Below the pieces are notes generated by a model. It worked only from the letters and a program-made list of their open reading frames with translations, made no database searches and was not told where the DNA came from. A stretch of 52,754 nucleotides of DNA from Bacteroidales bacterium (GTDB lineage: Bacteria; Bacteroidota; Bacteroidia; Bacteroidales; UBA932): positions 1 through 52,754 of the forward strand of contig JAKSJM010000014.1 in assembly GCA_024398075.1 (NCBI GenBank). Direction: 5' to 3'. Each line of letters begins with the position of its first letter. The first letter of the stretch is position 1. Made by a program: the position numbers and the translations under genes. Below, in pieces: positions 7,490-35,025 of the stretch.

Positions 7490-7519
7490 GAGCTGATCAA
7501 ATGATCAGCTCTTTTTTTT
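7490..7519 (+). terminator. Rho-independent terminator after tRNA-Glu
   Basis: GAGCTGATC and GATCAGCTC form a 9-bp stem with a 4-nt loop, followed by eight T residues. Confidence 0.9.
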
Positions 7520-7529
7520 GTGTCTACTT

Positions 7530-7560
7530 TTTCCCATCTGCTCAGGAATTGCTATCTTTG
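7530..7560 (+). promoter_or_regulatory. Probable promoter for the phosphosugar mutase gene
   Basis: TATCTTTG (7553-7560) has a TTTC 19 nt upstream (7530-7533), one mismatch from the -33 consensus. The leader would be about 22 nt. Confidence 0.5.
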
Positions 7561-7587
7561 GAAGTTATTTGGAAATACACATCAATA

Positions 7588-9006
7588 ATGACACTGATAA
7601 AATCTATTTCAGGAATTCGCGGAACAATCGGCGGTCCAGCAGGGGAGGGCCTTACTCCCATTGATATCGTTAAGTTTACTTATGCATATTCGCAGTGCCT
7701 CAAGGTAAGAAAACCTCAGCCATTTGGCGAGCGCTACAAGGTGGTGGTCGGAAAGGACGCGCGCCTTAGCGGTGCTATGGTCGAGCAGCTTGTATGCGGT
7801 ACGCTCATCGCTTGCGGCATCGATGTCGTCAAGGCAGGATTTGCGAGTACTCCTACTACTGAGATGGCTGTTACATTTGCGAAGGCTGATGGCGGTATCA
7901 TACTTACAGCTTCACACAATCCACGCCAGTGGAATGCCCTTAAGCTCCTGAACGAGAGAGGTGAGTTCCTCACTGCTCTTGAGGGACAGGCTATTCTCGA
8001 TCTAGCAGAGAGTGGCGACTTTGACTTCGCTCCGGTAGACGAGCTCGGCCACATCGAGGAGCATGACTTCACAGACGAGCATCTCGATGCTGTCCTCGCT
8101 CTAGAGGCAGTAGACGTCGAGGCTGTGAAGAATGCGCATTTCAAGGTAGTCGTTGATTCCATCAACTCAGTCGGTGGCGTGATTATGCCAAGGCTCCTTG
8201 AGCGTCTCGGCGTCGAGTGTATCTCTCTCTTCGGAGAGCCTACAGGAGACTTCCAGCATAATCCAGAGCCACTTCCTCAGAATCTTGTCACCCTTTCAGA
8301 GACTGTAGTGAAAGAGCATGCGGATCTCGGTATAAGCGTCGATCCTGATGTGGATCGTCTGGCATTCATCTGCGAGGACGGTAAACCATTCGTCGAGGAG
8401 TACACGCTCGTCAGCGTCGCTGACTATCTTCTTGAACTTGAGGAGGCCAAGGGGCATACAGGCATGACGACAGTGTCTAACCTTTCAAGTACCCGCGCTC
8501 TTCGCGATGTTACCGAAAAGCATGGTGGCGTATATCATGCTGCAGCAGTTGGTGAGGTGAATGTAACCACGAAGATGCATGAGGTGGGTGCGCTGATCGG
8601 TGGTGAGGGCAATGGAGGAGTAATCTATCCTTCCATCCATTGTGGCCGTGATGCCATGGTAGGCACCGCACTTTTCCTCTCGAATCTCGCGCATAAGGGC
8701 ATGAAGGTTACAGAACTCAAGGCTACCTACCCTCAGTATGCTATCGCCAAGAATCGAATTGATCTTAGTGACAAGGCTCTTATCGACAAGATCCTGGAGG
8801 AGATGAAGAAGGTCTTCGCTGATGAGAATATCAATGATATCGATGGCGTGAAGATATCCTTCGAGGCCGAGCGCAAGTGGGTTCACCTTCGTAAGTCAAA
8901 CACTGAGCCTATCATCCGCATCTACTCGGAAGCTCCTACTATGGAGGCTGCTGAGGAACTTGCCCAGAAGGTCATAGGCATTGCACATAAAATCATAGGA
9001 GAGTAA
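7588..9006 (+). CDS. glmM: Phosphoglucosamine mutase / phosphomannomutase family enzyme
   Basis: A 472-aa cytoplasmic alpha-D-phosphohexomutase, probably interconverting glucosamine-6-P and glucosamine-1-P for UDP-GlcNAc and peptidoglycan synthesis. All four signature sites are visible. The phosphoserine loop is TASHNP (Ser109). The Mg-binding loop is DPDVDR. The sugar-binding loop is GEGNGG. The C-terminal phosphate-binding loop is RKSNTEPIIRI. An upstream in-frame start at 7501 falls inside the tRNA terminator; ATG 7588 gives the normal MTLIKSISGIRGT start. The stop overlaps the next gene's ATG (TAATG), so the NamZ-like gene is translationally coupled. Phosphomannomutase activity is the main alternative. 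Confidence 0.85.
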   Translation: MTLIKSISGIRGTIGGPAGEGLTPIDIVKFTYAYSQCLKVRKPQPFGERYKVVVGKDARLSGAMVEQLVCGTLIACGIDVVKAGFASTPTTEMAVTFAKADGGIILTASHNPRQWNALKLLNERGEFLTALEGQAILDLAESGDFDFAPVDELGHIEEHDFTDEHLDAVLALEAVDVEAVKNAHFKVVVDSINSVGGVIMPRLLERLGVECISLFGEPTGDFQHNPEPLPQNLVTLSETVVKEHADLGISVDPDVDRLAFICEDGKPFVEEYTLVSVADYLLELEEAKGHTGMTTVSNLSSTRALRDVTEKHGGVYHAAAVGEVNVTTKMHEVGALIGGEGNGGVIYPSIHCGRDAMVGTALFLSNLAHKGMKVTELKATYPQYAIAKNRIDLSDKALIDKILEEMKKVFADENINDIDGVKISFEAERKWVHLRKSNTEPIIRIYSEAPTMEAAEELAQKVIGIAHKIIGE

Positions 9007-10070
9007 TGTTTTCATTTCGCACCACGCCGCTCCAGGATCAGCTGGACAAGGCCCTCATAGACGGAAAGGTGGGCTGTTTCTGCACCCAGAATTGCTGGGA
9101 TACAGAGACTGGCCGCTATATGTATGACATTTTCCGTGAGAGGGGAAATCTCCAGGTAATCTTCAATCCTCGTGATGCTGAGCTTACCCCTGATACAAAT
9201 CACATCCAGTTTACCCGCGAGGCCATTGAAGGACTCAATGCCATTGTCGTAGAGATTCAGGATGTCGGTTCGCGCTACTTCAACTATTCGCGTGACGTTT
9301 TTCATCTCATGTCAGTGATGAATGAGATGGAGGAAGCCCCTTCTCTCTACGTTGTAGACCACATAAACCCAGCGGGACGCACCGTAGAAGGCACTATTCC
9401 TGTCGTAGACAACGATTTGTGGGTGCCGAAGGTTGTGCATCGACACGGCTTGACCATTGGCGAACTTTGTCACCTATATTACAATGAGATCGGCGCGAAG
9501 TTCCCGCTTCATATCATCTCTGCGCGTGCCTCGTCAGCGGGACGCGACATTCTTCCTTGGGTGATACCGCCAGCATCCGATATCCCAGGCCTGTTCACCT
9601 GTGAGATGTATAGTGGTGGCGGCCTTTGGAACAGCACGAATATCACCCCAGGCATCGGTACGTCGAGACCTTATGAGTATTTTGGTGCTCCATTCATAAA
9701 GCCGGGTTCTGCCAATGATCTCCCTTCGCCAGAGGGGGTGATGATGCGTCCATGTAACTTCAGGCCTTCAGCTGGCCAGTATGCAGGGGAGTGGTGCTTC
9801 GGATACCAGATCATGCTGGCTCCAGGTGTTGAGTATCATTCTTTCCTACACACTTTGCAGCTTATGAGGTATATGGTTGAGCATTACTCACAGTTCGAGA
9901 TACGTGATGACTTTTGGTACAGACTTTCTGATCCTGTGGTGCAGGCTTATCTGAATGGGGAGATTACCTTTGATATCGTCCAGGAGCATGTAAAGATGGA
10001 AGAACAGAAGTGGATTCGCAAGGCAAAACGATTTACCTTGTATGAAGATCAGCCATATCGTATAAAATAG
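9006..10070 (+). CDS. DUF1343 / NamZ-like (GH171) protein without signal peptide
   Basis: A 354-aa protein of the DUF1343 family, whose characterised member NamZ is an exo-beta-N-acetylmuramidase removing MurNAc from peptidoglycan fragments. Family features seen are IQDVGSRYFNYS, DHINPAGR (the DRPNPxG position), HRHGLTIGEL, NSTNITPGIGTSRPYEYFGAPF and RPCNFRP. Two things differ from described secreted members. There is no signal peptide, so it is probably cytoplasmic. The usual PEHG-type motif near the N-terminus is replaced by NPRDAELTP. Its start codon overlaps the mutase stop, which links MurNAc recycling and amino-sugar supply. Activity is inferred, not shown. Confidence 0.7.
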   Translation: MFSFRTTPLQDQLDKALIDGKVGCFCTQNCWDTETGRYMYDIFRERGNLQVIFNPRDAELTPDTNHIQFTREAIEGLNAIVVEIQDVGSRYFNYSRDVFHLMSVMNEMEEAPSLYVVDHINPAGRTVEGTIPVVDNDLWVPKVVHRHGLTIGELCHLYYNEIGAKFPLHIISARASSAGRDILPWVIPPASDIPGLFTCEMYSGGGLWNSTNITPGIGTSRPYEYFGAPFIKPGSANDLPSPEGVMMRPCNFRPSAGQYAGEWCFGYQIMLAPGVEYHSFLHTLQLMRYMVEHYSQFEIRDDFWYRLSDPVVQAYLNGEITFDIVQEHVKMEEQKWIRKAKRFTLYEDQPYRIK

Positions 10071-14937: not shown

Positions 14938-14958
14938 CGCATTTTGAAATGAATTCGC

Positions 14959-14966
14959 TATATTTG
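14959..14966 (+). promoter_or_regulatory. -7 promoter box for the collagen-like lipoprotein
   Basis: TATATTTG ends 21 nt before the ATG at 14988. No -33 TTTG lies at 19 nt. Confidence 0.45.
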
Positions 14967-14987
14967 CATTTCAAAGGAAAATCTATT

Positions 14988-15449
14988 ATGAAAAGAATTC
15001 TTCAGATCTTCGCAGCTTTCGCGATAGCATTGGCTGCATGTTCATGTCAGGGACCTATGGGACCTAGAGGCCCTAAGGGTGAAGATGGTGAGGGTATGAA
15101 CTGGGAAGTCCTCTCACTCAATTGTCCTGCAAATGCGTGGAGCAAAATTGATAATGGCGATGGAACTTACTATTATACAGCACATTTCAAGGTTGATGCC
15201 TTGACGAAGCTTATCTGTGAGGAAGGAAACGTAAACTGCTTTGTGGTTTACTCTGATGGTGTTCAGGCAAACCTTCCATCCATTCGTTACTACCATGGTT
15301 CTGACTCTGGTGGCGACTTCTACTGGCAGACATCTACAGACTTCGAGTTCGCTCCAGGCAGCGTGGATGTTTATTACACCACAAGCGACTTCTACTATCA
15401 GCCTGATGAACCAGGTGTGAGAAGTTTCCGCCTTGTACTTCAGTGGTAA
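14988..15449 (+). CDS. Small lipoprotein with collagen-like GxY triplets
   Basis: A 153-aa lipoprotein of unknown function. The signal peptide ends in LAAC, so Cys18 is the probable lipidated residue (Cys20 is an alternative). It is followed at once by collagen-like triplets GPM GPR GPK GED GE (residues 22-35), then an aromatic-rich, probably all-beta domain of about 115 residues. Surface or periplasmic location follows from the lipobox. Start 14949 in the same frame lies before the promoter -7 box, so ATG 14988 was used. Monocistronic, with a terminator downstream. The larger lipoprotein at 32780-34912 also carries collagen-like repeats but is not otherwise similar. Confidence 0.75.
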   Translation: MKRILQIFAAFAIALAACSCQGPMGPRGPKGEDGEGMNWEVLSLNCPANAWSKIDNGDGTYYYTAHFKVDALTKLICEEGNVNCFVVYSDGVQANLPSIRYYHGSDSGGDFYWQTSTDFEFAPGSVDVYYTTSDFYYQPDEPGVRSFRLVLQW

Positions 15450-15470: not shown

Positions 15471-15499
15471 AACGCAGCCTGTTTTGGCTGCGTTTTTTT
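15471..15499 (+). terminator. Rho-independent terminator overlapping the dtd stop codon
   Basis: AACGCAGCC (15471-15479) pairs with GGCTGCGTT (15486-15494), and the T run continues to 15499. The minus-strand dtd stop codon occupies 15498-15500, so the T run doubles as the end of the opposing gene. Confidence 0.9.
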
Positions 15500-15950
15500 A
15501 TTCTTTTAATCTGGAATCGATTATGATGGTCACCGGGCCGTCGTTAAGCAGTTCGACCTTCATGTCGGCCCCGAATATTCCCTTCAGGACTGGCCTACCC
15601 GCAGCATCCTCAAGAAGTGAACAGTACTTTTCGTACATTGGAATTGCAAGCTCATGCCCGGCCGCCCTTATGTAGGATGGGCGATTTCCTTTCTTTGTTG
15701 AAGCTGTGAGAGTGAACTGAGAGATGGCAAGCAGTTCGCCATCAATGTCCACGACGCTCCTGTTCATCACGCCATTCTCGTCGTCGAAAATCCTCATTCC
15801 TGCGGTTTTCGACGCTATCCATTGGGCATCTTCTTCGGTGTCTCCATTTTCTACACCTACCAGAACCATCAAACCCTTTCCTATGCTTGAAATCAACTTG
15901 CCTTCGACAGTGACGGAGGCATGCTTAACTCTTTGGATAACTAATCTCAT
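15498..15950 (-). CDS. dtd: D-aminoacyl-tRNA deacylase
   Basis: A 150-aa cytoplasmic proofreading enzyme that hydrolyses D-aminoacyl-tRNAs (and Gly-tRNA-Ala). The start MRLVIQRVKHASVTV, the SQFTL motif (77-81) and the cross-subunit Gly-cisPro motif NDGPVT (136-141) are all diagnostic. Length is standard. The start codon is fixed by the family's invariant N-terminus, and a TATATTTG box lies just 7 nt before it. Confidence 0.96.
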   Translation of the reverse strand: MRLVIQRVKHASVTVEGKLISSIGKGLMVLVGVENGDTEEDAQWIASKTAGMRIFDDENGVMNRSVVDIDGELLAISQFTLTASTKKGNRPSYIRAAGHELAIPMYEKYCSLLEDAAGRPVLKGIFGADMKVELLNDGPVTIIIDSRLKE

Positions 15951-15957
15951 AATGATG

Positions 15958-15965
15958 CAAATATA
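15958..15965 (-). promoter_or_regulatory. -7 promoter box for dtd
   Basis: On the minus strand TATATTTG ends 7 nt before the dtd ATG, implying a leaderless or ultra-short-leader transcript. No TTTG at -33. Confidence 0.5.
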
Positions 15966-15985
15966 GCGTTTTTCCTCTCTAATGC

Positions 15986-16016
15986 ATTGTACATTGAAGG
16001 ATTAATAGTAAATTTG
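15986..16016 (+). promoter_or_regulatory. Promoter of the nine-gene envelope O-acetylation operon
   Basis: ATTG (15986-15989), 19 nt, then TAAATTTG (16009-16016); one mismatch in -33. The leader of about 48 nt is GC-rich and contains GCGC-TTCTT-GCGC and further CG-rich repeats. No other clear promoter is seen before 26151. Confidence 0.6.
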
Positions 16017-16057
16017 CGCTTCTTGCGCCTACACGCACGCATTATACACGTACGCGC

Positions 16058-16063
16058 GAGGAG
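16058..16063 (+). promoter_or_regulatory. Shine-Dalgarno-like GAGGAG before the esterase-LysM gene
   Basis: GAGGAG stands 6 nt before the ATG at 16070. Such a site is unusual in this window, where starts generally lack any purine-rich ribosome site, as is known for Bacteroidetes. Confidence 0.4.
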
Positions 16064-16069
16064 TTTTGT

Positions 16070-17086
16070 ATGAAGAAGACGTTTACTATACTGGCCTTTT
16101 TGTTGATCGCACATTTGTCTTTTGGACAGCTTATCACCCACAAAAATGTGGTTAAGGGTAGCTACAATTTCTGGGTTCATGTACCAGAGGACCGTACCCA
16201 GACTGATTCAACCCTTATACCTGCTGTGCTCTTCCTGCATGGCCGTAGTCTTTGTGGTACTGATATGGCCAAGGTGAGAAAGTATGGCTGTTTGGATGCG
16301 CTCAGGTACGGACTTGACATTCCTGCCATCGTGATCGCACCACAGAATCCGGGTGAAAGCTGGAATCCTTCCAAGCTTATGAAACTGCTTGAATGGTCTG
16401 AGAAGCATTATCCTATCGACACAAACAGAGTGTATGTGCTCGGAATGAGCCTTGGAGGATACGGAACCATTGATTTTGCTGGTACATATCCGGACAAGGT
16501 GGCTGCTGCCATGGCACTGTGTGGCGGTGGTACCATCAAGGACTACAAAGGCCTTAATGAAGTGCCACTCTGGATAATCCATGGAATTGCAGATGAGGCC
16601 GTGCCATGGAAGGCTTCGCAGAGCGTTGTTGATGGCATGAAGGCCGTAGGGGACACCACAAGGCTTCTTTATGATCTCCATCCGAAGGTAAACCACGGAA
16701 AGCTTGCTAGAGTGTTCTATCTAAATAAAACCTATGACTGGCTCTTCAGTCATAGCCTCACAGATAGTCTGCGCGCAGTAAACAGAGATTATGAGATCAC
16801 TGTTCCAGATATGGATTCGGCATACAAGGCCTTCTATGGTCAGCCAAAGAAGGATCTCAAGGTTTATGCTTACAAGAATGAGTCTGTTATCGAACCTTCG
16901 ACAGAAGATGCTTCTACTCCATCAGTTACTTACAGTGGCGATGCGGTGTACTATACCGTCAGGAAAGGAGACAGTTTGTCGAAGATCGCTGTAAACCAGC
17001 ATACTACAGTCGCTAAGCTTTGCTCATTGAATGGCATAAGCAAAGACTCAATTATCAGGATTGGTCAGAAGCTGAGGGTGAAATGA
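16070..17086 (+). CDS. Secreted alpha/beta-hydrolase esterase fused to a LysM domain
   Basis: A 338-aa exported protein: signal peptide (1-19), an esterase/feruloyl-esterase-like alpha/beta hydrolase domain (about 25-230), a linker, and a C-terminal LysM module (294-337, starting YYTVRKGDSLSKIA). The triad is visible: Ser127 in GMSLGG, Asp175 in HGIADEAVP and His209 in KVNHGK. LysM binds the GlcNAc-containing backbone of peptidoglycan, so the esterase is probably held on the cell wall, where O-acetyl groups are a plausible substrate. It is first in a nine-gene operon and overlaps the next gene by 4 nt (ATGA). Its paralogue at 24306-25112 lacks LysM. Deacetylase activity is inferred from context. 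Confidence 0.8.
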   Translation: MKKTFTILAFLLIAHLSFGQLITHKNVVKGSYNFWVHVPEDRTQTDSTLIPAVLFLHGRSLCGTDMAKVRKYGCLDALRYGLDIPAIVIAPQNPGESWNPSKLMKLLEWSEKHYPIDTNRVYVLGMSLGGYGTIDFAGTYPDKVAAAMALCGGGTIKDYKGLNEVPLWIIHGIADEAVPWKASQSVVDGMKAVGDTTRLLYDLHPKVNHGKLARVFYLNKTYDWLFSHSLTDSLRAVNRDYEITVPDMDSAYKAFYGQPKKDLKVYAYKNESVIEPSTEDASTPSVTYSGDAVYYTVRKGDSLSKIAVNQHTTVAKLCSLNGISKDSIIRIGQKLRVK

Positions 17087-18318
17087 GAAAGTCTTTGATG
17101 CTCATAATTGTCACGCTGACATGTGTCCTGAGGCTATCTGCATCTCCGGCAGATACTCTTGGCCTAGGCTTCAAGTCATTTGACCAGTTAGATAGTTCCG
17201 TGACTGTCTGGTATCTTCAGAGGCATCTGTCACAGGTGTCAGAGGATACACCATCGTCTGCTTCTTTTGAAAATGAAGCTAGTGATGAGGTCTACATTCA
17301 GCGACTTCAGCAGCTGAATTCTTTTATTCCTCTCATTTACAATGATGATGTAAGACGCTATATCAGGTCGTATTCGGAGAAGTCACACTCATGGATATCC
17401 CAGATGGTTAGTCTTAGTTACTACTACATGCCAATCATAGAAAATGAACTGGTTAGGAATGGCCTTCCCGTTGAGCTTGAAGTTCTCCCTATAGTCATTT
17501 CTCAGCTTGATCCTCGCTGTGAATCCTTCTCTGAAGGAAACAGGGGATTATGGCAGTTTAGTGTATCAGAGGGCAAGTCCTATGGTTTAAGGATAGACTC
17601 GTTCGTCGATGAACGAATGGATCCCTACAAGTCTACCGAGGCCGCTGTAAAGGCACTGAAGCAGTATTATGAGATACTGGGTGACTGGAATCTTGCGATA
17701 GCTGCTTTGGCGAGCAGTCCAAATACAGTCAGATTGGCAATGTCAAAAGTGGGTGGCAGTACATCTTTTACCTCTATCTGTGGGGCGCTTCCTAAAGGCG
17801 CACAGACGATAGTTCCGAAATTTGTAGCCATGCTCTATACTATGCACTATAGGAAGGAATTGGGTATTAGGCCAATAGCATGTGTTATGCCTAGCACATC
17901 GTCTGAACTGGTGGCAGATAAGGACATAGACCTTAGGCAGGTTGCCAAGCAGTCAGGAGTAAGCGTCGACGTACTCACAAATGTAAATCCACAGTATCTT
18001 CACTATATTATCCCATCAGGATGCATATTCAGAATCCCTGGTGAACATTCTTCCAAAATCTATTCGCTTGGTGATGCATTATATGCTCCGAGCGAAGCGA
18101 AGAAAGAGATAGTCAATAACTCTTCGAAGGAAAAACCAGAGGTTACCGCTTCGGTTGCTCCTGCCAGCACTGCGAAGAGAAATACCTACAAAGTGAAGAG
18201 TGGTGACACCCTGGGAGGTATAGCTGCGAAGTATCACATCTCAGTGTCTAAACTTAAGTCATTGAATCATCTGACCAAGGACCTAATCCGCCCGGGACAG
18301 ATACTTTATACGAACTAA
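17083..18318 (+). CDS. MltD-like lytic transglycosylase homologue with LysM, catalytic Glu missing
   Basis: A 411-aa exported protein with a signal peptide (about 1-20), an SLT/MltD-like domain (about 75-260) and a C-terminal LysM (368-410, YKVKSGDTLGGIA). The fold signature is clear: LPVELEVLPIV, RGLWQF and DPYKSTEAAVKAL. The catalytic Glu of the ES..NP motif is replaced: the sequence reads LPIVISQLDP, with Ile139 at the Glu site. The later NAGEG motif reads SSPNT. The enzyme is therefore probably dead and acts as a peptidoglycan-binding or scaffold protein. The in-frame start at 17020 lies inside the preceding gene; ATG 17083 begins a signal peptide and overlaps the preceding stop. Confidence 0.8.
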   Translation: MRKSLMLIIVTLTCVLRLSASPADTLGLGFKSFDQLDSSVTVWYLQRHLSQVSEDTPSSASFENEASDEVYIQRLQQLNSFIPLIYNDDVRRYIRSYSEKSHSWISQMVSLSYYYMPIIENELVRNGLPVELEVLPIVISQLDPRCESFSEGNRGLWQFSVSEGKSYGLRIDSFVDERMDPYKSTEAAVKALKQYYEILGDWNLAIAALASSPNTVRLAMSKVGGSTSFTSICGALPKGAQTIVPKFVAMLYTMHYRKELGIRPIACVMPSTSSELVADKDIDLRQVAKQSGVSVDVLTNVNPQYLHYIIPSGCIFRIPGEHSSKIYSLGDALYAPSEAKKEIVNNSSKEKPEVTASVAPASTAKRNTYKVKSGDTLGGIAAKYHISVSKLKSLNHLTKDLIRPGQILYTN

Positions 18319-18324
18319 GCGGAT

Positions 18325-19728
18325 ATGGTTTTTTCAGATCTATTTTTTCTTTTTGTCTTCATCCCTGCCTTTGCAGTATGCTATCTTCTCGCATCGCTTG
18401 CGAAGGGAAACAAGTTGAAGAACCTCGTTCTCATTCTTTTCTCACTCATCTTCTATGCGTGGGGAGAGCCTGTGTATGTCTTTCTGATGCTGGCATGTTC
18501 TCTTCTGAACTATCTATTTGGACTTGGCATAAATGGCTCGAATGCTAGACGCAAGCTTTTCCTTGTGCTGGGAGTCACGACGGATCTAATCATACTTGGC
18601 ACATTCAAGTATCTTGGATTCCTTGTGTCTCAGCTCAATGTTCTTGGAATTCAGTTACCTGATCCAAATATTTCTCTCCCTATAGGTATCAGCTTTTACA
18701 TCTTCCAGTCCATCTCATACTTGGTGGATGTATACAGAGAGGAATCACCGGCACAGAAGAATTTCTTCAGTCTTCTCCTCTACATATCGATGTTCCCTCA
18801 GCTCATCGCTGGTCCTATTGTCAGATACTCAACCGTTTCCGAGGAAATCAATAACAGAAAGGTCAGTGTCGATGATATTTCTGAGGGCATCTTCAGGTTC
18901 ATCATTGGTCTCGGTAAGAAGGTGATCCTTGCCAATCAGCTGTCAGAAGTAGCAGGAATGTTCCTTGCAAACAACCATGAACATCTTACTGTAGCCGGAG
19001 CATGGGTCGGAATCATTGCCTTTGCACTCCAGATCTATTTTGACTTCTCGGGTTACTCAGACATGGCCATTGGTATAGGAAGGTGTCTTGGTTTCCATTT
19101 CAAGGAGAACTTTGACCATCCTTATACCTGCGATACCATCACTGATTTCTGGCGTAGATGGCATATCTCACTGGGTAGTTTCTTCCGCGACTACGTATAC
19201 ATCCCAATGGGAGGTAATCGTCGTCACCAGGCTTTGAACATCATGGTTGTTTGGTGTCTCACTGGCCTCTGGCACGGTGCCAGCTGGAATTTCGTTATTT
19301 GGGGACTCTATTTCGGTGTCATTGTCATGGTAGAGAAATTTACCATTCTGAAGATTAAGGACAAGATTCCTTCTTTCATCCTGCATATTTATGCGATGTT
19401 CCTTGTGCTTGTGGGATGGGGGATCTTCTATTTCGATGATTTCAGTCAGATGACAAGTTTTTTCAGCGTAGCATTCGGAAAGGCTGAGGCTCTATCTGAC
19501 GTATTGGTATCCAGCACCTTGCTCCAGTACTTCTGGCTGATCATAGCGGCACTTCTCTTCTGTTTGCCGATAGGCAAGTGGTTGAGTAAATTCTTCAATG
19601 GCGAAGGTACTGCAAGAAATGCTGTCGCATTGACACTTAAGGTCGCTGCATCGCTGGCTATACTCGTCCTTAGCGTCGCGCTTCTCGTGGGTGCAACAAA
19701 TAACGCCTTCCTTTACACTAGATTCTAG
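18325..19728 (+). CDS. MBOAT-family O-acyltransferase (AlgI/PatA-like)
   Basis: A 467-aa inner membrane protein with about 10-12 membrane segments that moves acyl (usually acetyl) groups across the membrane to a periplasmic acceptor. It has the AlgI-type motif WRRWHISLGSFFRDYVYIP (His280) and the invariant MBOAT histidine in GLWHGASWNF (His317). The start MVFSDLFFLFVFIPAF is typical of AlgI. It lies 6 nt after the LysM protein and 2 nt before the first of two DHHW proteins, the usual MBOAT/SGNH pairing for alginate, cellulose and peptidoglycan O-acetylation. The acceptor glycan is not determined by the sequence; peptidoglycan is favoured by the two LysM proteins in the operon. Confidence 0.9.
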   Translation: MVFSDLFFLFVFIPAFAVCYLLASLAKGNKLKNLVLILFSLIFYAWGEPVYVFLMLACSLLNYLFGLGINGSNARRKLFLVLGVTTDLIILGTFKYLGFLVSQLNVLGIQLPDPNISLPIGISFYIFQSISYLVDVYREESPAQKNFFSLLLYISMFPQLIAGPIVRYSTVSEEINNRKVSVDDISEGIFRFIIGLGKKVILANQLSEVAGMFLANNHEHLTVAGAWVGIIAFALQIYFDFSGYSDMAIGIGRCLGFHFKENFDHPYTCDTITDFWRRWHISLGSFFRDYVYIPMGGNRRHQALNIMVVWCLTGLWHGASWNFVIWGLYFGVIVMVEKFTILKIKDKIPSFILHIYAMFLVLVGWGIFYFDDFSQMTSFFSVAFGKAEALSDVLVSSTLLQYFWLIIAALLFCLPIGKWLSKFFNGEGTARNAVALTLKVAASLAILVLSVALLVGATNNAFLYTRF

Positions 19729-19730
19729 AC

Positions 19731-20726
19731 ATGCGCAAGTTCTTGTTTATCATATCTTTCCTCGTTCTTTCTGTGTCAGTTATGGCGCAGGAGGCGTCGT
19801 ATAGGATGTCAAACAAGATCATGATCATTGGGCATGGCGAGGAGTTGAGGGCATTCTCCATCTATGGCGGTTCGCCTGAGAATTGTTCTGCATATGCAGC
19901 CACGGTAAGTAAATACAAGAAGATATTTGGTGATGCCGTGAATGTCTATTGCATGACCATTCCTACTCAGGGCGAGTTCTATTGTCCAGAGGAGGCGAAG
20001 CCTGCTCGCAGTGAGCTCTCCGCCATCACCTCGATTTACTCTAAACTCCAAGATGGCGCAGTGTCTGTAGATGCATATCATGCCCTCCAGCCACACCTGG
20101 CTGAGCCTATATATGCTCGCACGGACCATCATTGGCAGCCTCTTGGCGCTTATTACGCCGCGCAAGAGTTTGCTAGAGTGGCGGGTGTGCCATTCAAGGA
20201 CCTGTCACATTACACTGAGCACATTGTCTTCGGCTTTGTGGGCACAATGGCTGGTTATTCCAAGGATAGGGAAGTAGCAAATTCGCCCGAGAACTTCGTG
20301 TACTATGTGCCAAAAGATGTATTCTATGAGGCAGAGTACTACGATTATACATTGGACAAAGGCAGAAAGAGAGCAGTCAGCGAAGCGTCTATGAAAGAGA
20401 GAAATTTCTTCAGGACCTTCCCTGATGGTAGTGTGGCCGCATATAGCACCTTCATGGGAGGTGATGCGAAGCTTGTGAAGATCACCACCTCGACGACCAA
20501 CGGTCGCCGCCTGCTAATTTTGAAAGACAGCTTTGGCAATGCTCTTCCTGGCTATTTATTTTATTCATTTGAAAACATTCATGTAGTGGATTGCCGCTAC
20601 TTTACAAGAAACATTATAAATTACGTTATGGATAATGGCATCACGGACATATTGTTCGCAAACAATATCACCCATGCCAGCATGACTGCCACGTGGCAGA
20701 TGTACGAGAAGTATTTGATACAGTAG
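19731..20726 (+). CDS. DHHW/AlgJ-type SGNH acetyltransferase-like protein 1
   Basis: A 331-aa exported protein with a signal peptide (1-19). It has the DHHW-family core: RTDHHWQPLG (Asp132, His133) and LKDSFGNALPGYLFYSF (Ser267), which together give an SGNH-hydrolase-like Ser/Asp/His triad as in AlgJ/AlgX. Such proteins take the acetyl group from the MBOAT partner and attach it to the glycan. It is a close paralogue of the following gene; the two share long blocks such as VAGVPFKDLS and VDNGITDI or DNGITDI. It lacks the N-terminal membrane anchor and long linker of the second copy, so it may be soluble in the periplasm. Confidence 0.8.
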   Translation: MRKFLFIISFLVLSVSVMAQEASYRMSNKIMIIGHGEELRAFSIYGGSPENCSAYAATVSKYKKIFGDAVNVYCMTIPTQGEFYCPEEAKPARSELSAITSIYSKLQDGAVSVDAYHALQPHLAEPIYARTDHHWQPLGAYYAAQEFARVAGVPFKDLSHYTEHIVFGFVGTMAGYSKDREVANSPENFVYYVPKDVFYEAEYYDYTLDKGRKRAVSEASMKERNFFRTFPDGSVAAYSTFMGGDAKLVKITTSTTNGRRLLILKDSFGNALPGYLFYSFENIHVVDCRYFTRNIINYVMDNGITDILFANNITHASMTATWQMYEKYLIQ

Positions 20727-20729
20727 AAC

Positions 20730-22352
20730 ATGAAGACATCAAACAAGATATACGTCATACTCATTGGCGTCATCGCTGTGGCGCTGACGGTGATATTCAA
20801 TTTCCTGCCGAGGAGCACCTACTCCGAGCTCGAGAAGCGAGAACTCAAGACTTTCCCGCCCCTGGACACAAAGGAATTGGCCGAAGGCAAATATACAGAT
20901 GAGGTTTCGTCATGGTACAGCGACAGTGAGCCATTCCGTGACAAGCTCATGTATCTGAGCATGCTCTTCAAGGATATGATAGGCATCAAGCCATCGAAGG
21001 ACAATGTCACAGTGCATCTCAATGCAGATGCTTTCAACGATGAAGATGAGGCTGACACCTCTGCAGTCGTGGCTTCTGATGAGGCTAAGGATGAAATGAT
21101 TCTTGATGACAATGCAGGAGTAGATCTTCTGGAAGGAGCTGAGGCTGACTCACTTAACACTTCTACCGTTGAGGCTTACGAGGATAATATGGATGCCGTC
21201 ACAAAGATGGCAAATTCAGGTATCATAATTGTCGGCTCAGGTGAGAATGTGCGTGCTCTCATGGGCTTTTTTGGCACCAAGGGCGGAGTCAGCTATGCAA
21301 ATATTTGTAACAAATACAAGGAGACATTTGGGCCTGATGTGAACATCTATTGCATGCCTATCCCTACATCGACAGAGTATTATTGTCCTCCTTCAGCGCA
21401 GAAGTATACGAAGAAGCAGTGGCCAGTGTTCAACAACATCTTTACACACTTGTCAGCAAATGTCAAGGTCGTGGATGTATACTCGGAGCTTGCAAAGCAC
21501 ACAGATGAGGGCATTTATCTCCGTACCGACCATCACTGGGCACCGCTTGGTGGCTACTATGCCGCTAAGGTTCTTTGTCAGGTGGCTGGCGTGCCATTCA
21601 AGGATCTTTCCAATTATGATGAGCATGTTATTCATGGTTACGTGGGAAGTATGTATGGTTACTCGCACGATATTTCGGTAAAGCGTGCTCCTGAGGACTT
21701 TATCTACTATACTCCTAGAGATGTGGAGTATACGACGACATATGTGAATTATAGCATTAATTCTAAGTATCAGGTAACAGGCGAAGGCAAACCTTATGTT
21801 GGTCCATATTTCCACAAATTCAAGGATGGCAGCGGGGCGGCATATTGTACATTCATGGGTGGAGATACTAAGATCACTAAGGTAGTTACCTCTACAAAGA
21901 ATGGAAGAAAGATCATTATTCTTAAGGATAGTTTCGGAAACACTCTTCCTGGTTACCTGTTCTATTCTTTTGAGGAAGTACATGTCATTGACTTCAGATA
22001 TTTCACGAAGAATCTCGTTAAGTATGTGGTGGACAATGGTATTACTGATATTGTGTTTGCAAACAATATCGGTAATGCAAGTGGTGACTATGCGGCAAAG
22101 AGATTCAGCAAGTACCTGACGCAGAGCAACGGTGCATACGATGCTGAAACAGTACGTGCAGCGGCCGCAGCAGCTGCCGCAAAGGTGGATTCTGCTTCGG
22201 CTTCAGCTAGGGTAGATTCTTCATCTGCCAGCATACCAAGTGATTCGGCCGCAGTGGCTGATACCGTACGCGTTTTTGTGCCAAAGAAGGATTCTGTTGT
22301 GGTGGAAACTCCTGTGACAGAAGTTGTTGATACGACATCATTAAATTATTAA
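20730..22352 (+). CDS. DHHW/AlgJ-type SGNH acetyltransferase-like protein 2, membrane-anchored
   Basis: A 540-aa protein with an N-terminal membrane anchor (about 7-26), an acidic low-complexity linker (about 95-155), the DHHW catalytic domain (about 160-470) and an Ala/Ser/Val-rich C-terminal tail (about 475-540). Catalytic residues are present: RTDHHWAPLG (Asp267, His268) and LKDSFGNTLPGYLF (Ser401). The opening YSELEKRELKTFP is typical of this family. It is a tandem paralogue of the upstream gene with a 3-nt gap. The anchored copy is a likely direct partner of the MBOAT protein, with the shorter copy a soluble carrier or a protein with a different acceptor; that division is inference. Confidence 0.8.
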   Translation: MKTSNKIYVILIGVIAVALTVIFNFLPRSTYSELEKRELKTFPPLDTKELAEGKYTDEVSSWYSDSEPFRDKLMYLSMLFKDMIGIKPSKDNVTVHLNADAFNDEDEADTSAVVASDEAKDEMILDDNAGVDLLEGAEADSLNTSTVEAYEDNMDAVTKMANSGIIIVGSGENVRALMGFFGTKGGVSYANICNKYKETFGPDVNIYCMPIPTSTEYYCPPSAQKYTKKQWPVFNNIFTHLSANVKVVDVYSELAKHTDEGIYLRTDHHWAPLGGYYAAKVLCQVAGVPFKDLSNYDEHVIHGYVGSMYGYSHDISVKRAPEDFIYYTPRDVEYTTTYVNYSINSKYQVTGEGKPYVGPYFHKFKDGSGAAYCTFMGGDTKITKVVTSTKNGRKIIILKDSFGNTLPGYLFYSFEEVHVIDFRYFTKNLVKYVVDNGITDIVFANNIGNASGDYAAKRFSKYLTQSNGAYDAETVRAAAAAAAAKVDSASASARVDSSSASIPSDSAAVADTVRVFVPKKDSVVVETPVTEVVDTTSLNY

Positions 22353-22355
22353 CAT

Positions 22356-22703
22356 ATGAAAAAAATCATCGTCGTTGCCATTTTGGCTATCATGGCTGTT
22401 TCTTGTGCTTCAGAAGCTACAAAGTCAGTAAAGAAGCTCGACTCATTCGTTGAAAAGCTTGAGGCTAAATATGAGAACTACACTCAGGAGGATTGGCGTA
22501 ATGCCAACGAAGAGTACAAGGCGCTTTGGACCGCCGTCAAGGAGAATTGGGACCAAATGACTCAGGAAGAGCAGCAGAAGTGTTCTGAGAACGAAGGAAA
22601 GTACATAGGCCTCTTTGTAAAGAGTATGTCTAGTAACGTCGGTAAAGCAATAGACGGCGCTGTCGATGGTTTCGTCAAGGCTCTTGGCGGAGAAGAGAAA
22701 TAA
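22356..22703 (+). CDS. Small helical lipoprotein, function unknown
   Basis: A 115-aa protein with a lipoprotein signal peptide ending MAVSC (Cys17). The mature part is rich in Lys, Glu and Ala and predicted almost entirely helical, with segments like KKLDSFVEKLEAKYENY and EEYKALWTAVKENWDQM, possibly a helical bundle. No enzyme motif is seen. It sits 3 nt after the second DHHW gene and 11 nt before the beta-propeller lipoprotein, so it belongs to the operon and may be an envelope scaffold. Confidence 0.7.
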   Translation: MKKIIVVAILAIMAVSCASEATKSVKKLDSFVEKLEAKYENYTQEDWRNANEEYKALWTAVKENWDQMTQEEQQKCSENEGKYIGLFVKSMSSNVGKAIDGAVDGFVKALGGEEK

Positions 22704-22714
22704 TCAGTAATTAC

Positions 22715-24274
22715 ATGAAAAAGACATTCTTGCTTGTATCACTTCTGGCGATGGCTATTGCATGCCAGAATAGAAATATACAGCAAGCCAGCGTTGAAGA
22801 TGTTGAGGTTGTGAAACCTATTCAGCACCTTCCCGATACTTCATACCCATCCGTTGCGAAGTATATCAAGTATACGATAGATACTATGGATCGTGAGATG
22901 CCGGGGTATATCGAGGACTTGAGTGATCAGTATTCTGATGCTCCTGGTTATTTTACGTTCCGTGGCGCGCCAGACAGGTCTGCGCCCTTCAAGGGACGCG
23001 TGACCGGACGGCCAAGCAAGGTGGTCGTAGACTGGGTATTCAGGACTCCGTACGATACTGTCAAGACCTATATGGGCTCGTGGGGTGGTGGAACCGGATG
23101 GACGGGGCAGCCTCTTTACGTCAATTGGCCTGATTCATTGGTAGATAAGTTCAAGAATTCACCATCTCAGGTGACTGAAGACTTCAGTAATGAGGAGATT
23201 ATGGTGGCATCACTTGCAAGGCATGTCTATTTCATTGATTTCCAGACAGGAAAAGCATCGCGTGAGCCTCTTTCGACCATGAACCCTGTGAAGGGTACCA
23301 TCTCGCTTGATCCATCGCTCAATGGTCGCCTCTACGTCGGTCAGGCTCTCCCTATGAGCACGATAGGCGCACTTGTGCTTGATCTTTTCAATCATGAAAC
23401 CTTTAACTTCTTCGGAAGGGATCCGGAAGCATGGCGATCATGGGGCGCATATGATTCTTCTCCTGTAGCCGTCGGCGATTTTATGATTCGTCCAGGAGAG
23501 AACGGAACCATCTATAAATTAGAGCGTTTCGCGGATGAGTTCAAGATTCATTCGACCCTACGCTACAAAGATAATGGTGGCGCTGGCGGAATGGAATCTT
23601 CAATGGCTGTATATAGAAATTATGGCTACATTGGAGATAACCATGGAAAGATACTCTGCGTAAATCTCGACAATCTGAAACCAGTTTGGGTGCATGACAT
23701 TCATGATGATACTGACGCAACCCCTGTCGTGCAGGAAGAGAATGGCGTGCCTATGGTTTACGCCAGCTGCGAAGTGGACAAGCAGGGCGCAAACGGCTAT
23801 TCAAATTTCACCAAGCTCAATGGCCTTAGTGGAGAAGTGATTTGGTGCCAATCGATTCCGTGTCATAAGAGAGACTGGGCTGGCAAGCTTCGCGAAGGTG
23901 GTATGTTCGCTACACCATACCTCGGAAGGGGAGACTGCGATAGCCTCATTTTCACTAACATGTGCTTCCCTGAGGATCATCCTAATGTAAGTGAATTCAT
24001 TGCCATGAATAAATTCACCGGCGATATCGAGTACAAGATTACCATGGACTTTTACGCATGGTCATCGCCTGTGGGATTTCTCAATGAGGACAATGAACTC
24101 TTCGTCGTGACTGGCGATATCATTGGAAATATCTATCTTATCCAAGGCCGCACCGGCGAAGTTATCTTCAAGGAGCATTTCGGCGACAACTTCGAGTCGT
24201 CGCCTGTCGTTATAGATAGCAGCTTCGTGGTCGGTTCGCGAGGCACTCAGATTTTCAAGATGCATCTCGAATAG
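22715..24274 (+). CDS. PQQ/BamB-like beta-propeller lipoprotein
   Basis: A 519-aa lipoprotein (signal peptide ending AIAC, Cys17) whose body shows repeated beta-propeller blades of the PQQ-enzyme/BamB type: GTIYKLERF, GKILCVNLDNLKPVWVHDI, TKLNGLSGEVIWCQSI, NKFTGDIEYKI and IYLIQGRTGEVIFKEHF. No PQQ-dehydrogenase catalytic residues are evident, so a protein-interaction scaffold is more likely than an oxidoreductase. Within the operon it could hold envelope enzymes together at the outer membrane. The next start is 31 nt downstream. Confidence 0.7.
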   Translation: MKKTFLLVSLLAMAIACQNRNIQQASVEDVEVVKPIQHLPDTSYPSVAKYIKYTIDTMDREMPGYIEDLSDQYSDAPGYFTFRGAPDRSAPFKGRVTGRPSKVVVDWVFRTPYDTVKTYMGSWGGGTGWTGQPLYVNWPDSLVDKFKNSPSQVTEDFSNEEIMVASLARHVYFIDFQTGKASREPLSTMNPVKGTISLDPSLNGRLYVGQALPMSTIGALVLDLFNHETFNFFGRDPEAWRSWGAYDSSPVAVGDFMIRPGENGTIYKLERFADEFKIHSTLRYKDNGGAGGMESSMAVYRNYGYIGDNHGKILCVNLDNLKPVWVHDIHDDTDATPVVQEENGVPMVYASCEVDKQGANGYSNFTKLNGLSGEVIWCQSIPCHKRDWAGKLREGGMFATPYLGRGDCDSLIFTNMCFPEDHPNVSEFIAMNKFTGDIEYKITMDFYAWSSPVGFLNEDNELFVVTGDIIGNIYLIQGRTGEVIFKEHFGDNFESSPVVIDSSFVVGSRGTQIFKMHLE

Positions 24275-24305
24275 CGCACGCTTTTTGATAGAAACGCTAT
24301 CCTGT

Positions 24306-25112
24306 ATGAAGAGATTACTGTCAATCATGATATTTGCATTCACCATGCTTCCTAGCGTGGTGAATGCTCAGCTTATAAAGCACGTCAAAGTCATTCCGGA
24401 TACATACAATTTCTGGGTGTACGACGCGGCCCCCGACTCCACAAAGATTCCATGCGTTATTTTCCTTCACGGTAAGAGCCTGTGTGGCAATGATCTGAAT
24501 CTTGTGAGGCAGTATGGATGCCTAGATGCGCTTTGCTATGGCATCGACATCCCTGCCATCATCATTGCTCCTCAGAATCCTGGAAATGAGTGGTGGAAGC
24601 CATCAAAGATCATGAAGATACTTGAGTGGGCAGAAGAGCAATATCCTATCGATACCGATAGGGTGTATGTAATAGGGATGAGTCTCGGCGGGTTCGGAGC
24701 AATGGATCTGGCTGCCACATATCCAGATAAACTAGCAGCGGCTATGCCTTTGTGCGGCGGAACTACACTTAAGTCAGTGTCTGGATTGGGTAGCATCCCT
24801 ACCTGGATCATTCATGGCTCGGGGGATGAGAAAGTGCCTTATTCTCAATCGCTTAAAGTCTACTCAGAACTAACATCCAAAAAGCTTCTTGATAGACTTC
24901 GCTTCGACTTGATAATGGATTCAAGTCATTCTGATTTGGCGAGATGCTTCTATATGCCAAAAGTATATCAATGGCTTTTCTCACATAGCCTGAAGGACAA
25001 GAATAGACCAGTCAATTGGTCTGTCAGCATCACAGCTCAAGATCTTGAGGATGTTCCTAAAAATAGGGGTAAAAAGCACGTAAATCTTACTGTAAAAGAT
25101 TATGAGAAGTAG
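24306..25112 (+). CDS. Secreted alpha/beta-hydrolase esterase (paralogue of 16070-17086)
   Basis: A 268-aa exported esterase with a signal peptide (about 1-21) and triad Ser126 (GMSLGG), Asp174 (HGSGDEKVP) and His208 (DSSHSD). It aligns along its full length with the first gene of the operon (shared FLHGxSLCG, YGCLDAL, DIPAIxIAPQNPG, YPIDTxRVYV). It ends in a short basic tail where the other has a LysM module. It is therefore probably the freely diffusing partner of a wall-bound esterase. Start 24306 was chosen over TTG 24285 because it begins the signal peptide. It overlaps the next gene by 11 nt. Confidence 0.8.
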   Translation: MKRLLSIMIFAFTMLPSVVNAQLIKHVKVIPDTYNFWVYDAAPDSTKIPCVIFLHGKSLCGNDLNLVRQYGCLDALCYGIDIPAIIIAPQNPGNEWWKPSKIMKILEWAEEQYPIDTDRVYVIGMSLGGFGAMDLAATYPDKLAAAMPLCGGTTLKSVSGLGSIPTWIIHGSGDEKVPYSQSLKVYSELTSKKLLDRLRFDLIMDSSHSDLARCFYMPKVYQWLFSHSLKDKNRPVNWSVSITAQDLEDVPKNRGKKHVNLTVKDYEK

Positions 25113-26151
25113 TGTAGTGGCTTTGCTGATTCTGTCAAGCCTTGGCTTGTCAGCTCAGAATTTGAGCATATCCATGACTGGTGACATAATGATGGGTACG
25201 ACCGTGCCTGGTAACTATCTGCCTGCCGCTGACGGCAAGAACCTGTTCAAAGACACAGCACCTACATTAAGGTCTACTGACATAACCATAGGAAACCTTG
25301 AAGGCACACTCTGCGATACGCCCGGCTCACCACGCCCCATGACGAATCCAAAGACGTATTTCCTATTCAAGATGCCTCAAAAGTATGTGTCAAATCTTGT
25401 GGAAGCTGGTTTTGATGCAATGAATATTGCGACGAATCACATCAATGATTTCGGGCAGGAGGGTCGAGACTCCACCATGGCCACGCTAGAGGCCGCAGGC
25501 CTCGCTTTCTCGGGATTGAAGGATGCCTGTGAGTATTGTATACTTGAAAGGGACGAGAAGAAAATAGGCATCTGCTCATTCTGCGACTCTAAGAATTCTG
25601 TTGACATCAACGATGTAGAAGGAGCGGTTAGCATCGTGCGTGACCTAAGAAACTACTGTGACTATGTCATTGTGACTTTCCATGGCGGTGGTGAAGGTGC
25701 GGCATATCAGCATGTTACTCGTAAGACTGAGTATTATGTGGGGGAGAAGAGGGGCAATGTATATGAACTCGCCCATGCTTGCGTGGATGCTGGAGCAGAT
25801 CTGGTCTTTGGACATGGCCCACATGTGCCAAGAGCATTGGAACTATATGAAGGTCACTTGATTGCGTATAGCCTTGGAAACTTCTGTACTCCGTACCGCA
25901 TCAATGTGAATGGTATCTGTGGATACGCTCCAATTCTTGTCGCCAGCATCGATTTTGATGGCCATTTTGTAGAGGGTAGGATAGAGTCTTATATTCAGAA
26001 AGTAGGAGTCGGACCCGTTAAGGATCCGACGCATAAGGCTGCTCTACTTATGAAGTCGCTCTCTAAGCAGGATTTCCCAGAGAGCCGTCTCGTTATCACC
26101 GATGATGGAAGGCTACTTGCTCCTAATGCTACGGAAGTAACTAAACATTAA
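25102..26151 (+). CDS. CapA/PgsA-family metallophosphatase-like protein
   Basis: A 349-aa exported protein of the CapA family, related to calcineurin-type phosphoesterases and linked to poly-gamma-glutamate capsules or other envelope polymers. Motifs seen are SISMTGDIMMGT (metal Asp), GNLEGTLCD, NIATNHINDFG, VTFHGGGEG, and GHGPHVPRALELYEG followed by AYSLGNF. A signal peptide covers about 1-18. It is the last gene of the operon, starting 11 nt before the esterase stop. Its 3' end overlaps the convergent MATE gene by 39 nt, with no room for a terminator between them. Since no PgsB/PgsC is present, a capsule role is not supported; phosphatase or glycan processing is more plausible. Confidence 0.8.
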   Translation: MRSSVVALLILSSLGLSAQNLSISMTGDIMMGTTVPGNYLPAADGKNLFKDTAPTLRSTDITIGNLEGTLCDTPGSPRPMTNPKTYFLFKMPQKYVSNLVEAGFDAMNIATNHINDFGQEGRDSTMATLEAAGLAFSGLKDACEYCILERDEKKIGICSFCDSKNSVDINDVEGAVSIVRDLRNYCDYVIVTFHGGGEGAAYQHVTRKTEYYVGEKRGNVYELAHACVDAGADLVFGHGPHVPRALELYEGHLIAYSLGNFCTPYRINVNGICGYAPILVASIDFDGHFVEGRIESYIQKVGVGPVKDPTHKAALLMKSLSKQDFPESRLVITDDGRLLAPNATEVTKH

Positions 26152-27447
26152 TGGGATAGCCACCATAATGGAGAATAAGTCTGCTACCATCTGACACATC
26201 TCCACTCCACGAAGCCCGAATATGTGAGGCAGTATCAAGATGAGTGGGATGAAGAAAATTCCATTTCTGCATGCTGCAAGTATGTTTGCTGGAATGCTTC
26301 TGCCACTTGTTTGAAGTGTCATGTTGCAGACCGTAATCAGTGCTGCGATAGGGTATGTGATAATCTGCCAGCGAAGCGCTGCGGCTCCGACTTTTACTAC
26401 TTCGGGATCATGCCTCATGAGGTCCACCACCTGCTCGGCGAAGATAAATCCTAGCACGCAAATAGGGATGAGGAAACACATGCCGGTCTTTATGCAGAAT
26501 TTGAAACCTTCCCTGACGCGATCATACAGGCCGGCACCGTAGCTGAAACCACAGAGTGGCTGGAATCCCTGTCCAATGCCAATTATCACGGAGAAAATGA
26601 CAAATGTGAGTCGGGAAACTATTGACATTCCGGCGATTGCTGCATCTCCATATACTCCGGCTGCAATGTTAAGCATAAGCGTTGAGACGCTTGCCAATCC
26701 CTGTCGAGTAAGTGATGGGGTACCTCCCTTGAAAATCTCCTTGAGATAAACGCTTTCAAGCGAGAAGTCGCTGAATCTGAAGCGGATATTATTTCCCTTG
26801 TATGTCATCGCAAGCAGCACGATGAAGCTGAGAATCTGTCCGAGAACTGTTCCTATCGCTGCACCTGTTATGCCCATTTTGAGACCGAAGGCAAACAGGG
26901 GCACAGCTACCACATTGAGAATGGCTCCAGACAGTATGCCTATCATTGAGTATGCGGCGTTTCCCTGGAAGCGTATCTGGTTGTTCAGTGTCAATGCTCC
27001 CGTCATGAAAGGTGATCCTAAAAGAATGATTCCCAGGAACTTCTCAGTGTAGGGGAGTATGGTGGGAGTGGAACCCAATGCTATGGAAAGTGGCTTGAGG
27101 AATATAAGGCCTAGCGTAGCGCCAATGACTCCGAAAAGAAATGAAAAAATCAGCGCTGTGGCGGCCATCTTGCTCGCATGCTCTGTCTGTTGGGCACCAA
27201 GCTTTCGTGAGATATATGTTCCTGAACCTTGGCCAAAGAAAAAGCCAAATGCCTGAATCACAGTCATTGCCGGGAATACAACTCCCACAGCAGCCGTCGC
27301 CTGTGTGTTTATTAGGCCGACATAGAATGTGTCGACCATATTGTACACACTGGTGATCAGCATGCTGATCACAGTCGGAACAGCCATTTGAAGAATGACT
27401 TTGCCGACTGGACCTGTGGTTAGCAATGTGTAATTGTCCTTTTTCAT
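26113..27447 (-). CDS. MATE-family efflux transporter
   Basis: A 444-aa inner membrane protein with about 12 transmembrane segments. The start (LLTTGPVGKVILQMAVPTV), SVYNMVDTFYVG and GIGQGFQPLCGFSYGAG are characteristic of MATE (DinF/NorM-like) drug/Na+ or H+ antiporters. It is second in a minus-strand pair, 6 nt after the DUF2207 gene. Its last 39 nt overlap the convergent capA-like gene. Substrate unknown. Confidence 0.92.
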   Translation of the reverse strand: MKKDNYTLLTTGPVGKVILQMAVPTVISMLITSVYNMVDTFYVGLINTQATAAVGVVFPAMTVIQAFGFFFGQGSGTYISRKLGAQQTEHASKMAATALIFSFLFGVIGATLGLIFLKPLSIALGSTPTILPYTEKFLGIILLGSPFMTGALTLNNQIRFQGNAAYSMIGILSGAILNVVAVPLFAFGLKMGITGAAIGTVLGQILSFIVLLAMTYKGNNIRFRFSDFSLESVYLKEIFKGGTPSLTRQGLASVSTLMLNIAAGVYGDAAIAGMSIVSRLTFVIFSVIIGIGQGFQPLCGFSYGAGLYDRVREGFKFCIKTGMCFLIPICVLGFIFAEQVVDLMRHDPEVVKVGAAALRWQIITYPIAALITVCNMTLQTSGRSIPANILAACRNGIFFIPLILILPHIFGLRGVEMCQMVADLFSIMVAIPLMFSYFRSIRSK

Positions 27448-34912: not shown

Positions 34913-34953
34913 ATTGATGTGATTTAAAATTGAATTTTCGGGATGCGTTTTCA

Positions 34954-35001: not shown

Positions 35002-35025
35002 AAGGTCAAAATGAGTACTTATTTT

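Follow-up and report, generated by a model that had tools for sequence, protein, structure and literature searches.

The window, as the 52,754-nucleotide (nt) stretch of DNA analysed here is called, makes up contig C6 in a genome assembly of 2.49 Mb (82% complete) from a gut Bacteroidales bacterium. Between positions 16070 and 26151 it carries nine open reading frames (ORFs), all on the + strand and here named genes A to I, which encode an MBOAT acyltransferase, two DHHW/SGNH proteins, two related esterases, a transglycosylase-like protein, two lipoprotein-like proteins and a CapA-like protein (Table 1). An earlier interpretation made from the DNA letters without database searches (the sequence-only reading) described them as one operon with gaps of at most 31 nt behind a single promoter, and this layout is borne out. 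Genes A and B overlap by 4 nt (ATGA) and genes H and I by 11 nt, while the gaps between B and G are, in order, 6, 2, 3, 3 and 11 nt; that from G to H is 31 nt when counted to the ATG of H at 24306 (a TTG at 24285 is a possible alternative start). The candidate promoter, 53 nt upstream of gene A, is the sole full match on the + strand of 15701-26300 to the pattern NTTG-N18-22-TAnnTTTG, which we take to be of the Bacteroidota type.

Table 1. Genes and other features of the nine-gene operon and of two related loci (window positions unless a locus is named).
Feature	Position	Strand	Description	Basis
Candidate promoter	15986-16016	+	Bacteroidota-type, ATTG-N19-TAAATTTG	Pattern match
Gene A	16070-17086	+	Alpha/beta-hydrolase esterase, C-terminal LysM, signal-like start	Family scan
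Gene B	17083-18318	+	MltD-like SLT + LysM protein	Family scan, alignment
Gene C	18325-19728	+	MBOAT acyltransferase	Family scan, motifs
Gene D	19731-20726	+	Short DHHW/SGNH protein	Family scan, motifs
Gene E	20730-22352	+	Long DHHW/SGNH protein, N-terminal hydrophobic segment	Family scan, motifs, structure match
Gene F	22356-22703	+	Small lipoprotein-like protein	Lipoprotein-like signal sequence from translation
Gene G	22715-24274	+	Beta-propeller-like lipoprotein	Propeller matches below cut-off; lipoprotein-like signal sequence from translation
Gene H	24306-25112	+	Second alpha/beta-hydrolase esterase, no LysM	Family scan, comparison with A
Gene I	25102-26151	+	PGA_cap (CapA-like) protein	PGA_cap, 164 bits
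NlpC/P60-LysM gene	L319 3968-4921; L320 7343-8275		Beside propeller and LysM esterase

The same nine genes are found in the same order in a second assembly (locus L033, JAKSJL010000052), so the operon is more than a chance arrangement. Because the L033 sequence is identical to the matching stretch of contig C74 of genome G611, the two are counted as one assembly. Between the window and L033 the synonymous sites are nearly saturated (synonymous divergence, dS, 1.0-2.5), and the ratio of nonsynonymous to synonymous divergence (dN/dS) is highest for B at 0.09, with values of 0.02-0.06 in the seven genes A, C, D, E, G, H and I; gene F, which evolves fast (57% identity), gave no computable dS. All eight computable genes, including B, are under purifying selection, and since low dN/dS values accompany such high dS values, the gene order and the gene products, including the catalytically dead B (see below), have been maintained over a long time. 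A search for the nine-gene order across Bacteroidales, which the sequence-only reading had suggested as a check, recovered the full order only in the window and in L033. What recurs instead are smaller units, i.e., GDSL-MBOAT-DHHW(-DHHW) and, separately, a LysM esterase with a propeller.

The ACYLTRANSFERASE core of the operon consists of genes C, D and E. The C protein scores 83 bits against the MBOAT profile PF03062 (cut-off 27), carries WHG at residues 316-318 with the conserved histidine at His317, and ends in FLYTRF (residues 462-467, the last six), i.e., the acyl-shuttle motif FXYXXF with its tyrosine at position 464. Among the loci compared, all 80 homologous ORFs longer than 400 residues end in FXYXXF. 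In PatA, acetyl-CoA is the source of the acetyl group that this tyrosine acquires by auto-acetylation, and PatB uses the acetylated peptide as its donor (PMC12148441; this and the other papers are cited for what their available excerpts state). Both D and E exceed the cut-off of 25 for the DHHW profile PF14286 (109.6 and 135.5 bits, respectively) as well as that for PF16822 (ALGX-type SGNH), and a Pfam scan of the two proteins returned these families and no DUF459/PatB domain. The DHHW, KDSFG and DxRY motifs, which start at residues 132, 265 and 287 of D and 267, 399 and 421 of E, are all intact. The two proteins are 50% identical over 313 residues, and E matches the solved DHHW structure 4nzk (E-value 2.3e-62) and the PatB1 structures 5v8d/5v8e (E-value ~1e-9). 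With the shuttle motif in C and the catalytic motifs in D and E, the MBOAT-SGNH acyl transfer envisaged from the sequence finds support, and C, D and E very likely form such a module. As judged from these motifs, C would move an acyl group, most likely acetyl, from acyl-CoA onto Tyr464, and D and E would accept it on the serine of KDSFG and hand it over to a periplasmic glycan.

Two homologous esterases, one with LysM, had also been predicted, and A and H fit this description at 54% identity. They are, however, alpha/beta hydrolases and not GDSL/CE3 enzymes of the Ape type, as had been supposed. The presumed triad of A (Ser127, Asp175 and His209) is invariant in 10 aligned sequences. Together with the long-branched L294, A and H form a group of five rows (support 88/94; inner order not resolved), and the two are likely to have arisen by a duplication after which H lost its LysM. 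Solved-structure matches of this type of protein are general esterases (3doh, LC-Est1C) and do not settle the substrate. Both A and H are likely to serve this acylation pathway as esterases, A, held at the wall via LysM, and H being the ones that would take the acyl group off. Outside the operon, nine further genomes among the 393 match gene G at E-values <1e-100 (eight more, at 5e-5 to 6e-4, are treated as chance), and in seven of the nine fetched loci (L137-L140 and L143-L145, not L141 and L142) it adjoins an A-like esterase, which makes G a candidate partner of the A-type esterase by association. LysM is present on all five propeller-adjacent esterases scanned (L137, L143, L145, L319 and L320). 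In two genomes of the same genus (L319 and L320) an NlpC/P60-LysM gene is followed by the propeller and then by the LysM esterase, and this NlpC/P60-LysM neighbour is the best evidence that the LysM-esterase/propeller module acts on peptidoglycan. As a separate observation, in L287, L292 and L145 (family f55) a purE-like gene is found either next to a LysM esterase or at a distance of one gene from it, and an adenylate-kinase-like gene is nearby (assigned by eye).

Gene B encodes the pseudo-transglycosylase that the sequence-only reading had recognised. In both operon copies the position of the catalytic glutamate is occupied by isoleucine (Ile139, codon 17497-17499) and the YNCG motif is replaced by LASS. 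Glu and YNCG are present in all 28 other MltD-like homologues aligned (31 loci tried, of which L014, L016 and L025 gave no ORF at the thresholds used), and another MltD-like gene of the same genome, on contig C57, retains the glutamate. An active transglycosylase is ruled out by the loss of both elements. Lytic transglycosylases depend on the C-6 hydroxyl of muramic acid being free (PMC1199599), and the transglycosylase LtgA forms a complex with Ape1, which it stimulates and stabilises (PMC7083599). By analogy, a transglycosylase fold that binds the glycan without cutting it would be a sensible guide for an esterase; speculatively, B may bind the glycan and present it to, or activate, an esterase, much as LtgA acts on Ape1 in Neisseria. 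We give slightly less than an even chance to this tentative proposal of B as a helper of the esterases.

The family scan of F returned no family over cut-off. Gene I contains the motifs GDIM, NH and GHGPH and is presumably a metal-dependent phosphoesterase.

MBOAT proteins are common in the order, being found in 332 of 393 genomes, the source genome included; those at least 60% identical to C are found in four other genomes (G508, G259, G365 and G507). In an MBOAT tree of 56 rows, in which the clostridial loci L061-L112 are represented by six rows, C falls in a 23-row Bacteroidota clade (support 100/99) inside which the order is not resolved. A separate five-row clade (support 100/100) holds L304, L305, L306, L308 and L312; weakly matching GDSL-like genes lie upstream of the MBOAT gene, two of them in L305, L308 and L312, one in L306 and none in L304. 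On the basis of gene order, L305, L308 and L312 are presumed to be the published OAP cluster discussed below. Of 25 related Bacteroidota loci examined, 22 are comparable with the operon, i.e., have an MBOAT more than 55% identical and a readable upstream gene (L039, L043 and L052 were excluded, their MBOAT being truncated or absent). In all 22 the gene directly upstream of the MBOAT is related to GDSL probes, and all three of these upstream genes that were scanned exceed the cut-off of Pfam Lipase_GDSL. Two DHHW genes follow the MBOAT in 19 of the 22 and one in L181 and L182; L050 ends there. The window and L033 have A and B in the position before the MBOAT where these relatives have the GDSL gene; no GDSL family was found among the nine genes, and two GDSL probes from the relatives match neither these genes nor L033 (the rest of the source genome was not searched).

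The closest relatives of C, D and E are the GDSL-MBOAT-DHHW-DHHW loci of Prevotellaceae and related taxa (L034-L051, L059 and L075), whose full-length MBOATs are 58-64% identical. They differ from the operon in the GDSL gene that stands where the operon has A and B, in the absence of a B-like gene and in that a propeller is found only in L035, after the DHHW pair, and in L042 (Prevotella vespertina), where an A/H-like esterase gene and the propeller gene precede the GDSL, MBOAT and DHHW genes in one uninterrupted run, two ORFs taking the place of an intact second DHHW gene. The sister loci L184 and L185 have the order MBOAT-DHHW-[GDSL + LysM], and their DHHW proteins keep the serine in a varied motif (KDSN, KNSM). 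Other MBOAT loci have a different setting. The source genome has a second MBOAT (L148, contig C44), 31% identical and situated just after an FkbH-like gene within a glycosyltransferase-like run (names by eye). In the clostridial loci L053 (9398-12932) and L058 (5089-8692), the MBOAT-DHHW genes are followed by a ~600-residue gene and a small gene, which we take to be FkbH-like and carrier-protein-like, respectively.

Clusters of an MBOAT with Ape1b and Ape1c were reported for B. fragilis, B. thetaiotaomicron and P. gingivalis in 2005, together with O-acetylation of the peptidoglycan in both Bacteroides species, at 69% and 27% (PMC1199599), and the overall concept is therefore not new; in the open-access literature we found no paper on the present gene combination. 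The operon shares with this OAP cluster (Pat + Ape1b + Ape1c) a single MBOAT and two esterase-like genes, but its esterases are alpha/beta hydrolases, its MBOAT belongs to another supported clade, and it adds a DHHW pair, a dead transglycosylase, a propeller and a CapA-like protein. By definition, which calls for GDSL/CE3 Ape proteins, the operon is outside OAP, yet it would work like one. With PatA/PatB of Neisseria and Campylobacter (PMC12148441) it has in common an MBOAT with the histidine and a C-terminal FXYXXF beside an SGNH protein, while its SGNH partners are two DHHW-family proteins instead of DUF459/PatB and its acceptor is deduced. MBOAT-DHHW pairs are known as PatA1/PatB1 (Bacillus cereus) and proposed as CcsH/CcsI (Clostridia) (PMC9487903, PMC7710045); their targets, established or proposed, are secondary wall polysaccharide and cellulose, whereas no polymer synthase was found in the operon. 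LtgA-Ape1 of Neisseria meningitidis (PMC7083599) likewise pairs a lytic transglycosylase with a de-O-acetylase, but LtgA is active and works on acetylated peptidoglycan, whereas B lacks the catalytic glutamate and its pairing with an esterase is speculative. The operon is thus probably a known kind of add-and-remove acylation system built from an unusual set of parts.

From these comparisons we consider it fairly probable that the operon is an envelope O-acylation and de-acylation system, most likely acting on peptidoglycan and with acetyl as the most likely group, i.e., a wall O-acylation module of the PatAB type that comes with esterases of its own and a putative pseudo-transglycosylase helper. 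Peptidoglycan had been named as the acceptor on the strength of LysM. The family scan finds LysM in A and B, which suggests wall targeting, and we hold peptidoglycan to be the acceptor with somewhat better than even confidence; this part of the claim stays an inference because the DHHW enzymes described in the literature have been linked with secondary wall polysaccharide or, as a proposal, with cellulose (PMC9487903, PMC7710045).

Several other observations weigh against this interpretation. The complete nine-gene set is known from two assemblies only. LysM binds chitin-type glycans too, and the L042 esterase, also beside a propeller, is devoid of LysM. Genes F, G and I belong to the scheme by association only. 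In L047 and L181, nucleotide-sugar genes lie within ~6 kb (by eye). Finally, an SGNH-like query from the canonical-looking locus L308 (a gene with no Pfam match) matched 8 of 20 chosen genomes, among them the same-genus G030 and G105; of six genomes that have a related MBOAT-DHHW locus, it matched G365 and G507, and G051 only weakly, at its GDSL-LysM gene. The source genome was unmatched. A clean replacement of the canonical cluster is not supported, since G365 and G507 match its SGNH-like protein, and the replacement is at most partial.

The MBOAT-DHHW module might instead acylate a different glycan, of the envelope or extracellular, whose synthesis is encoded elsewhere in the genome, with LysM serving only to anchor the esterase. 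This explanation, which we regard as unlikely, draws on PatB1, the founding DHHW enzyme, which works on secondary wall polysaccharide, on CcsI, proposed for cellulose (PMC9487903, PMC7710045), and on the position of the genome's other MBOAT among glycosyltransferase-like genes (L148). Homologous clusters that always lie inside capsule or exopolysaccharide loci would, according to the sequence-only reading, have spoken against peptidoglycan; ten glycosyltransferase probes, picked by eye and six of them taken from L148, gave no match in 26 of 28 related loci, of which seven are short (5.8-11.5 kb: L036, L039, L040, L041, L050, L052 and L184). The other two, L038 and L047, gave one match each, several kb away, by probes taken from those same loci. 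Neither a polymer synthase nor a glycosyltransferase family was found among the 38 window ORFs covered by the family scans. Because glycosyltransferases were not found, a capsule or exopolysaccharide locus is set aside. The occurrence of LysM on esterase-like proteins in three settings, together with transglycosylase-derived and NlpC/P60 partners, further argues against a glycan other than peptidoglycan.

It is also conceivable, and in our view distinctly improbable, that the operon is a mosaic sharing one promoter, composed of a PatAB-like pair, an unrelated wall-esterase/propeller module and a CapA-like gene. Propeller and esterase occur with no adjacent MBOAT in seven of nine loci of the order and in two genomes of the same genus, no propeller is found in the available flanks of 20 of the 22 GDSL-MBOAT-DHHW loci, and single LysM esterases stand beside housekeeping-looking genes (by eye). 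Against this view, parts of both modules adjoin in three lineages (including L042 and L035), and L033 retains both the gene order and the overlaps at a dS of 1.0-2.5. Least probable, to the point of being very unlikely, is the transfer of a group other than acetyl, e.g., D-alanyl or hydroxy-acyl: C does match the DltB model TIGR04091, at 141 bits and below the cut-off of 375, and the FkbH-like and carrier-protein-like genes of L053 and L058 suggest that the clostridial systems use other acyl donors and transfer a non-acetyl acyl group, but no carrier-protein or loading-enzyme family was found among the nine genes or the other scanned window ORFs, and the shuttle motif lies within the MBOAT, as in PatA, and not in a DltX-like peptide. 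D-alanylation by a Dlt system was itself rejected, there being no DltA/DltC, carrier protein or ligase among the nine genes and the DltB score being below cut-off.

If the operon does act on peptidoglycan with acetyl as the group, it may represent a second, convergent peptidoglycan O-acetylation cycle, with DHHW acyltransferases, LysM alpha/beta-hydrolase de-O-acetylases unrelated to Ape, a non-cutting transglycosylase as guide or activator that ties de-acetylation to the glycan chains, and a propeller as scaffold of the esterase; this full proposal is speculative and we rate it as possible, on the doubtful side. Acylation of the wall governs the action of lysozyme and of the bacterium's own lytic enzymes and hence the survival of gut bacteria in animals. 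A cycle of this kind would extend the wall acylation chemistry of Bacteroidales by a new family of esterases and by a pseudo-transglycosylase, and it would make directly testable the idea, raised by LtgA-Ape1, that transglycosylase folds serve as purely non-catalytic partners of de-acetylases.

The distribution of the genes within the genus is patchy. Gene E is found in 3 of 121 and gene G in 4 of 240 same-genus genomes (the source genome included in both counts, and G611, i.e., L033, in the latter), and the proposal of a horizontal gain of the operon rests on this patchiness; the MBOAT tree does not amount to proof of it. In the other two E-bearing genomes (L146 and L147), tblastn gave DHHW matches only and no MBOAT on the stretches examined; each match contains a stop codon, and that in L146 is at a contig end. 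No match to C was found in five other same-genus or same-family genomes of the order search (G145, G488, G246, G344 and G425). An empty site could not be shown in a comparison of ten same-genus dtd neighbourhoods because the surroundings of dtd are otherwise not conserved, a priA match beside dtd being found in L277 only.

The 3' end of gene I converges with a MATE transporter gene with an overlap of 39 nt. The base composition of the operon is unremarkable (guanine-cytosine content 0.45-0.47, inside the window range of 0.42-0.52). Scans of the window for sigma-70 promoters (26 sites versus 20.6 expected) and for terminators (14 versus 8.5 expected) were not used for the operon. A role in phage defence was set aside, the lone PADLOC match, of F to JetB3 (E-value 5e-4), being weak and taken as chance. 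Upstream of the operon, a + strand ORF (14949-15449) encodes a 166-residue protein with a lipoprotein-like start, a short collagen-like stretch and no Pfam match, and is followed by a terminator-like hairpin at 15471-15494. A gene for a NamZ-type exo-beta-N-acetylmuramidase (9006-10070, +) lies ~6 kb upstream of the operon and is preceded by a phosphoglucomutase-family gene (7501-9006, +). On the other side of the operon, the - strand encodes at 32780-35002 a 740-residue protein with DUF4988, collagen-like repeats and an FGE-sulfatase domain.

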